From positions 1 to 36,677 of the forward strand of contig JALSME010000106.1 of the NCBI GenBank assembly GCA_026987955.1: a stretch of DNA of 36,677 bases, in the 5' to 3' direction. The position numbers and the translations under genes are program-made. The stretch's first letter is position 1. Each line of letters starts with the position of its first letter. This stretch comes from Sulfurospirillum sp. (lineage in GTDB: Bacteria; Campylobacterota; Campylobacteria; Campylobacterales; Sulfurospirillaceae). Positions 1,341-4,646 of the stretch are shown one piece after another. The notes under the pieces were generated by a model. That model made no database searches. It was not told the DNA's origin and saw only the letters and a list, made by a program, of their open reading frames with translations.

Positions 1341-1613
1341 ATAACTGACCTTACACACCATCTATACTTTTAGATGGTTTATCTTTGCTTTTAGTGCGAG
1401 GCAAAGTCTTGAAATCCTAGCCTTAGCTAAGATGAAAGACTTTAACGAAGCAATAAAGGCAAAGATAAGCCACCCTTTGGGTAAAAGCATAAGATATCAA
1501 CTGCTTCGTTAAGTTTGCTCACCTTAGCTATTGCTAGGCTCTCGCAAACTTGCCTTGCATTTGACATCTTCTGCTTTTATCTAAAAATATAGATGGTGCT
1601 TAAGGTCAGTTAT
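1341..1613. repeat. Candidate MITE-like / palindromic intergenic element with ~34-bp terminal inverted repeats and two internal hairpins
   Basis: Left end ataactgaccttacacaccatctatacttttaga versus reverse complement of right end ataactgaccttaagcaccatctatatttttaga; symmetrical without gaps about position 1477 (ACCC-TTT-GGGT at the exact centre). Confidence 0.75.
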
Positions 1614-3584: not shown

Positions 3585-4646
3585 ATGAGATACTCAATAA
3601 ACCACAAAAAAACTTTTAATGATAATCTGCTCTTTTGGCTGGATAGATTTGTCAAATCAAAACTTACTTCATTATCTAATAGGTATGTTAATAACAATGA
3701 AAAACTTTCCATCATAATAGGAAGATTAAACCAAGGTACAAGCAGTATAGATGAGCTTAAGCAGCTATGTAAAGATGCAAGAAACATAGGGCTCATTGGC
3801 ATAAATACCTACATAAATCCTCTATATAAGTTCTACATGTATATTATAAATTTTTCATTTGATAGCCTAAAAGAGCTTGATGAAGAGGTTTTGAGTGAGT
3901 TTTTAGCTTCTCAAACTGGCTCACTTAGTGATGCTACCAAAAAGAACTATCGTATGGCTGTTGTTGCTTTTTTTGGTTTTATCGACAAGCAAAATGAAGA
4001 TAATACTGGGAATGCTCATCAGTTTAGGATTGAGTTGAAAAACTGGGGTGGACTTAAAACAACTCATGCCAATAAACTTCCGTCACACATGCAAGATAAA
4101 GAGCTAAAGCGTTTTTTAAAAGCTATAGACACAACAGAGTTTAAGGAGTATGCACAAGCCAAAAATAGGCTTCTTATAAAGACCATACTTTATAGTGGTA
4201 TGCGTGTTAGTGAAGCTTTAGGTCTACATGTAAAGGATATGGTTGCAGAAGATGGATTCTATATTTTTCAGATACGAGGAAAAGGAAATAAGCCAAGAGT
4301 TGCTATGATAAAACAACACTATATCAAAAAAGATCTGCATGAGTGGCTTGAGTTTAGAGATATAAACTCCCCTCTTCTTTTTCAAAGTCGTACAGGTAAA
4401 GCCCTTACTCAGTCATATGTAAGTTATATCATGGACAAAATCCTACTTAAAGCAGGAGTAAGAAAAGAGAAAAATGGTGCACATATGCTTCGCCATACTT
4501 TTGCCACTAAACTGTATCAAAAAAATAGAGATTTAGTTCTAGTGCAAGAAGCACTAGGTCATGCCGATATCAATACTTCAAGAATCTATACACATTTTGA
4601 TAAAGAGAGATTAAAAGCCGCTGCTAGTACACTTGATGATATTTAG
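3585..4646 (+). CDS. xerH: Tyrosine recombinase XerH
   Basis: 353 aa; resembles Helicobacter XerH (NLLFWLDRFVKSKLTSLSN; LIGINTYINPLYKF; GAHMLRHTFATKLYQKNRDLVLVQEALGHADINTSRIYTHFDKERL) with R..HxxR..H/Y catalytic motifs. Confidence 0.93.
   Translation: MRYSINHKKTFNDNLLFWLDRFVKSKLTSLSNRYVNNNEKLSIIIGRLNQGTSSIDELKQLCKDARNIGLIGINTYINPLYKFYMYIINFSFDSLKELDEEVLSEFLASQTGSLSDATKKNYRMAVVAFFGFIDKQNEDNTGNAHQFRIELKNWGGLKTTHANKLPSHMQDKELKRFLKAIDTTEFKEYAQAKNRLLIKTILYSGMRVSEALGLHVKDMVAEDGFYIFQIRGKGNKPRVAMIKQHYIKKDLHEWLEFRDINSPLLFQSRTGKALTQSYVSYIMDKILLKAGVRKEKNGAHMLRHTFATKLYQKNRDLVLVQEALGHADINTSRIYTHFDKERLKAAASTLDDI

Follow-up and report, generated by a model that had tools for sequence, protein, structure and literature searches.

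Integron attC sites are imperfect hairpins of variable sequence that are recognised by their conserved mismatches and by strand, and in the terminal hairpins of parvoviruses such as AAV a palindrome folds into a stem with two side arms. Bacterial MITEs (ERIC, RUP and Correia/CREE; reviewed in PMC10969869) are non-coding, high-copy intergenic repeats with terminal inverted repeats, AT-rich targets and a short target duplication, and the ends of IS200/IS605 elements and of the REP/REPIN-RAYT systems form strand-specific DNA hairpins in which conserved unpaired bases act as recognition elements (PMC8266576, PMC6006769). We describe here an element of about 270 bp that is like each of these in part. 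It is short and non-coding, with terminal inverted repeats and many dispersed copies, as MITEs are; its inner arms are imperfect hairpins of variable sequence with a conserved mismatch and strand, as in attC; strand-specific hairpins with conserved unpaired bases are shared with the IS200/IS605 and REP systems; and its general outline may resemble that of the parvovirus terminus. No description of it was found in the open-access literature searched.

Position and fold of the element

The element was found in a 36,677-nt stretch of a Sulfurospirillum sp. genome (contig JALSME010000106.1, forward strand), here called the window, where it is flanked by two minus-strand genes, one for a DEAD-box helicase and the other for Fe-S assembly (Table 1). 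An earlier note, made from the letters alone, had described a multi-hairpin with terminal inverted repeats, and its coordinates, terminal repeats, inner stems and centre (ACCC-TTT-GGGT, 1472-1482) all proved to be as it claimed. The terminal arms (1338-1375 and 1579-1616) are 89 % complementary, the two halves, inverted about position 1477, pair at 72 % over 58 nt, and the self-pairing inner stems are 87 % (1375-1397 with 1450-1472) and 83 % (1476-1504 with 1557-1585) complementary. Compared with dinucleotide shuffles, either strand folds better by 12 to 15 standard deviations (z = -12.0 and -14.8 for the two strands as DNA, -13.6 and -15.5 as RNA), and none of 200 shuffles folds as well. A gene inside 1341-1613 is not likely, in keeping with the earlier reading that the segment codes for nothing obvious. 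The TTA at 1610-1612, at the end of the element, reads on the minus strand as TAA, the stop codon of the adjoining Fe-S assembly gene; several other copies (L045 and L028, for example) likewise appear to adjoin or provide stop codons. A tyrosine recombinase gene with a Phage_int_SAM_6 domain lies 2 kb away (window 3585-4643, plus strand) and probably encodes a chromosomal XerH-type recombinase.

Table 1. Parts of the element, in window positions
Feature	Position	Strand	Remarks
Whole element	1341..1613	.	Homologues full-length at 264-275 bp in many genomes
Proper element	1344-1610		Provided that TA is the target duplication
Possible target duplication TA, left boundary	1342..1343	.	Flanks of 30 copies; left consensus TTnnTA-A
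Possible target duplication TA, right boundary	1611..1612	.	Same 30-copy flank comparison
Left terminal inverted repeat, 5' strand of outer stem	1344..1375	+	Starts ACTGACCTTACACACCATC
Arm 1 hairpin	1377..1470	+	Folds on plus strand; helices A (17+3 bp) and B (8 bp) separated by a conserved internal loop and capped by an apical hairpin; R1 94.1 bits, E 3.8e-22
Arm 1 5' box TGCGAGGCA	1395..1403	+	AGGCA columns invariant in alignment A1 and across phyla
Arm 1 3' box TAACGAAGCA	1443..1452	+	TAACGA columns invariant
Central mini-hairpin CCC-TTT-GGG	1473..1481	.	3 bp and a 3-nt loop
Arm 2, homologous hairpin, inverted	1484..1577	-	Folds on minus strand; R1 91.5 bits, E 1.8e-21; own-strand wobble test
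Arm 2 3' box TAACGAAGCA	1502..1511	-	Read on minus strand
Arm 2 5' box TGCAAGGCA	1551..1559	-	Read on minus strand
Right terminal inverted repeat, 5' strand of outer stem	1579..1610	-	Outer stem 5' strand on minus strand

Copies, subfamilies and target sites

When the element's own genome (~2 Mb) was searched by blast, 43 matches were returned, many of them ending at contig ends; four copies are 96-100 % identical over the whole length, and others are at 79-80 %. The covariance model R1 found 72 arms in the same genome, at about 56 loci, and over these the identity of full copies is given as 79-97 %. Sequence-level matches occur in 13 of 60 relatives, and the box pattern AGGCA(25-54)TAACGAMGC matches in 27 of the 60, with up to 25 matches in high-copy carriers against none for the reversed control, lone matches in other genomes often being due to chance. 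Under strict filters R1 arms are present in 64 of 397 Campylobacterota genomes and in 24 of the 68 genera sampled. Terminal sequences that are unrelated to one another (TAACTGACC, AAGTACCTAACC, TAGACTTCTTGC, AGGGTACCTCT, TATTGCCAACATG and AAACTGACCTTGC) mark at least six subfamilies, and all copies read have one architecture and one length range, 264-275 bp. The left terminal repeat of the window copy, ACTGACCTTACACACCATC..., is common to copies L001-L004, L017 and others.

Transposition is shown for the subfamily with GGGNACC ends, which also occurs in the window's genome (L065). Elements of this kind in genome G295 face empty sites in the complete genome G256, with flank identity above 90 %, as at L358 (duplicated AAAT) and L365 (TCTA), and an exact 4-bp flank duplication accompanies 14 of 34 end pairs against 1.6 expected; this set also contains short relics joined end to end and a small number of chance pairings. 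The window subfamily has the target TTnnTA-A[CTGACC...GGTCAG]T-TAnnAA, and about 60 % of 30 copies have TA at both boundaries, which is compatible with a TA duplication; an exact duplication of the type found in the GGG-ended subfamily was not seen. The outermost bases vary by copy with their complementarity kept (AACTG/CAGTT, ATCTG/CAGAT, AGCTG/CAGCT). We infer that the window subfamily moves like its GGG-ended sister.

The mobile repeat proposed in the earlier note is thus borne out by dispersed copies, empty sites and 4-bp duplications, the last two in the sister subfamily; an empty site for the window copy itself was sought in five congeners and none was identified, the flanks being too diverged. 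Its further, speculative suggestion of an IS630/Tc1-type TA element, made from the TA dinucleotides that are indeed present at both boundaries, is not supported. An ordinary palindromic MITE of this type, like ERIC, RUP or Correia and with inner stems that are incidental, would account for the TA flanks and symmetric target (TTnnTA..TAnnAA) of the window subfamily and for a palindromic, AT-rich, intergenic element, but it is improbable, since TA is found at both ends in part of the copies only, the sister subfamily has 4-bp duplications, and the inner arms, rather than the differing ends, are what is most conserved across phyla. DDE_3 (IS630) is moreover missing from the genome of the window and from nearly every carrier; genomes G000, G002, G004, G015, G021 and G023 were each without it.

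Several further features of the copies may be recorded. Bare end-to-end palindromes of 26-51 bp occur in the window's genome (L017 1487-1537, L018) and in G256 (979323-979372, 1079029-1079054 and 1191796-1191822), some of them flanked by a 4-bp duplication, and these look like full elements that were internally deleted between short direct repeats. The insertion at L366 is the same as that at G256 740221-740492, with flanks about 95 % identical, which shows vertical inheritance of some copies, and at the L363 site G256 has only a short right-end remnant. At about 1763639-1774470 G256 carries a five-gene cluster, with cytochrome-like and ferredoxin-like ORFs, in three tandem repeats that are 99-100 % identical.

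Conserved arms and strand polarity

The element consists of an outer stem, an arm 1 of ~94 nt, a mini-hairpin CCC-NNN-GGG, an inverted arm 2 and the closing outer stem. In each arm a mismatch-bearing helix A (17+3 bp) is followed by an internal loop of TGCGAGGCA and TAACGAAGCA, a helix B of ~8 bp and a variable apical hairpin. Among 26 non-redundant arms, 93.4 % of cells pair, against 62.8 % when shuffled and 34-45 % when slid; double changes are found at 32 of 36 pairs, in 284 cells where shuffles give 89. The covariation score reaches 0.82, compared with 0.24, a value as high being obtained in none of 500 shuffles. The helix sequences are replaced almost completely with their pairing kept, and the bases of the internal loop are near-invariant. 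The compensatory changes that had been noticed between the two halves of the window copy are thus quantitative across homologues and, together with the fold energies of both strands, strongly support a selected fold. The earlier note had named a single copy, or a lack of covariation, as arguing against its reading; the BLASTN and covariance-model searches that it proposed gave the opposite on both counts.

This arm is not confined to the Campylobacterota. The pattern TGCGAGGCA(36-44)TAACGAAGCA is present in at least 119 stretches of genome contigs, the matches listed including Clostridia, Lachnospiraceae, Streptococcus, Endozoicomonas, Verrucomicrobia and Aminicenantes as well as Acidobacteriota, Desulfobulbaceae, Desulfovibrio, Bacteroidota, Phycisphaerales and Paceibacterota. 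These loci were chosen by box sequence alone, and among the matches listed nearly all fold as the same arm with helices unrelated in sequence; box-bearing arms were found in Clostridia, Desulfobacterota, Verrucomicrobia, Aminicenantes, Bacteroidota and Endozoicomonas. Double changes occur at 33 of 36 pairs (673 cells against 208 shuffled), and neither the lengths of the helices nor the bases of the loop vary from phylum to phylum. The inner arms are the most conserved part of the element over this distance and its ends differ; in some of these elements the boxed arm is present at one end only and the second hairpin is a different one.

The arms also have a polarity. A G.T pair on one strand of a duplex is A.C on the other, so that equal numbers of the two are expected if neither strand is preferred. 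Read in the orientation of the boxes, however, the ratio of G.T to A.C is 296:30 in Campylobacterota and 211:23 in other phyla, and in two-armed elements, whose arms lie on opposite strands, both arms are biased (118:6 and 137:12). An independent count, in which the covariance model had no part, took arms by their box sequence and kept those able to fold; it gave 148:14, with 54 arms against 1 (p = 3e-15). Each arm therefore uses its own strand for folding, namely that with its 5' end at the terminus concerned. The loop pair beside the boxes is G.A (42), T.C (8) or A.A (6), and is Watson-Crick in none of 56 arms against 12.9 expected.

Paired changes can arise by themselves through template-switch correction between the halves of a hairpin, a process known in long DNA palindromes, and such quasi-palindrome correction, with no selection on the fold, would also suit terminal bases that differ among copies but stay complementary. 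It is nevertheless highly improbable here, as correction would erase mismatches and the loop pair is never Watson-Crick, the tenfold excess of G.T over A.C lies on one strand, and helix lengths and loop bases do not change across phyla.

The mini-hairpin (3 bp and 3 nt) bears on whether DNA or RNA is folded. It follows 112 of 122 Campylobacterota arms, and 109 of these 112 have a purine-N-A loop (GNA or ANA type) or its complement; in other phyla, where the boxed arm is mostly on one strand, the loop is GNA in 13 of 19 cases and GNA outnumbers TNC by 13:3. GNA loops closed by C-G form unusually stable mini-hairpins in DNA, and the preference for them is accordingly taken as favouring DNA as the acting molecule, without proving it. 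Should the fold instead act as RNA, transcription from either side would make the first arm that the polymerase reaches, which is always in box orientation, a structured regulatory or protective RNA, and the copies would be spread by a transposase that reads the terminal repeats only. G-U tolerance suits RNA as well as DNA, two-armed elements begin with a sense arm on every strand, one strand of the mini-hairpin has UNCG-type loops, and the RNA fold energies are very low. We consider this reading rather unlikely all the same, since both arms of one element, on opposite strands, show own-strand wobble, and no single transcript can satisfy the two. The one-strand GNA preference also weighs against it, as does an Rfam search in which no family scored above the gathering threshold. 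Nor is there a preference in the orientation of the genes around 11 elements (4 co-directional, 4 divergent and 3 convergent), and insertions come within a few bases of start or stop codons on either side; the same lack of bias speaks against a role as transcription terminator or 3'-UTR. The fold thus presumably acts as DNA.

Candidate mobilising enzymes and known systems

The search for an enzyme covered several candidates, and none of four transposase or nuclease families (Y1, IS630, PDDEXK_2 and DDE_Tnp_1) tracks the carriers. No gene-bearing copy was found by end spacing among the matches listed for 41 genomes, clustering of ORFs near 80 loci from many phyla gave no partner gene, and no autonomous copy was seen in 2.0 of the 2.22 Mb (~90 %) of G256, where a 724-bp end pair at 1026485 encloses an ORF that we read as phosphodiesterase-like and no transposase. 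Multi-copy insertion sequences are lost from draft genomes, so that absence of a transposase there is weak evidence, and absence from complete or near-complete carriers weighs more. The DDE_Tnp_1 transposase of IS4/IS5 is in none of G000, G002, G004 and G012, and a PDDEXK_2 gene, suggested by work on Rpn (PMC4853749), is absent from all carriers of the window's family f1. A phage or plasmid origin was rejected, as the searches gave no match, and one viral contig only.

A REP/BIME-like repeat moved by a Y1 (RAYT) transposase, with the inverted hairpins as a REP pair, would fit the REPIN-like pair of hairpins with a bulge. Y1/RAYT-like genes do occur 2 kb from one element copy of G295 (L365 343-873) and in G256 (918109-918576), with no wider co-occurrence. 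This reading is very improbable and largely refuted by co-occurrence, as Y1 genes are lacking from six carriers, G002 (98 % complete), G021, G023, G052 (2 contigs), G045 and G042, and the non-carriers G003 and G005 have 2-3; 94-nt arms and terminal repeats with a target duplication are also foreign to REP.

We think it reasonably probable that the element is a non-autonomous, MITE-like DNA transposon with ends that serve for recognition as folded single strands or cruciforms. It would be moved in trans by a separate enzyme, presumably a transposase. Each terminus would comprise a terminal inverted repeat and a ~94-nt arm, the latter folding from the strand that runs 5' to 3' inward when this is single-stranded or when the palindrome is extruded as a cruciform. 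The enzyme would most likely read the internal loop, where GAGGCA faces TAACGA and one mismatch is obligatory, together with the fixed lengths of the helices, much as an integron integrase reads folded attC or the IS200/IS605 transposase its foot hairpins. Insertion is at intergenic, AT-rich sites and makes a short duplication, of 4 bp in the GGG-ended subfamily. A fold common to unrelated bacteria with differing repeats points to an unrecognised family of shape-read jumping DNA. More tentatively, the two-arm core may be a conserved structural module that is joined in many phyla to varied terminal repeats and duplications, and an undescribed class of enzyme may recognise it at both transposon ends as DNA folded from a single strand.

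If this is correct, there is a mode of transposition in which a target-duplicating element with terminal repeats requires strand-specific DNA hairpins. Intergenic repeats that are palindromic tend to be written off as dead MITEs; here an inner hairpin is kept over great evolutionary distance by its pairing and not its sequence, and the obligatory mismatch and polarity are the mark of a molecule read by shape. R1 is a ready covariance model for surveys of bacterial genomes and gives a concrete handle on the mobilising enzyme.

What is new in comparison with known systems is that the inner arm, and not the terminal repeat, is deeply conserved, the same arms occurring with different terminal repeats and duplication lengths. 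Unlike MITEs (PMC10969869), the element has inner arms with invariant loop motifs and a geometry fixed across phyla despite differing ends, folds strand-specifically and has no known parent IS. It differs from IS200/IS605 ends and REP/REPIN-RAYT (PMC8266576, PMC6006769) in arms that are about twice the size or more and are inverted at both ends, in its target duplication, and in carriers that need no Y1 gene. The complementary RYYYAAC/GTTRRRY box pair of attC is lacking, the boxes in alignments A1 and A2 being GAGGCA and TAACGA, and the element is dispersed singly with terminal repeats; in contrast to the parvovirus and AAV hairpins, it is a chromosomal repeat and does not stand at the ends of a linear genome.
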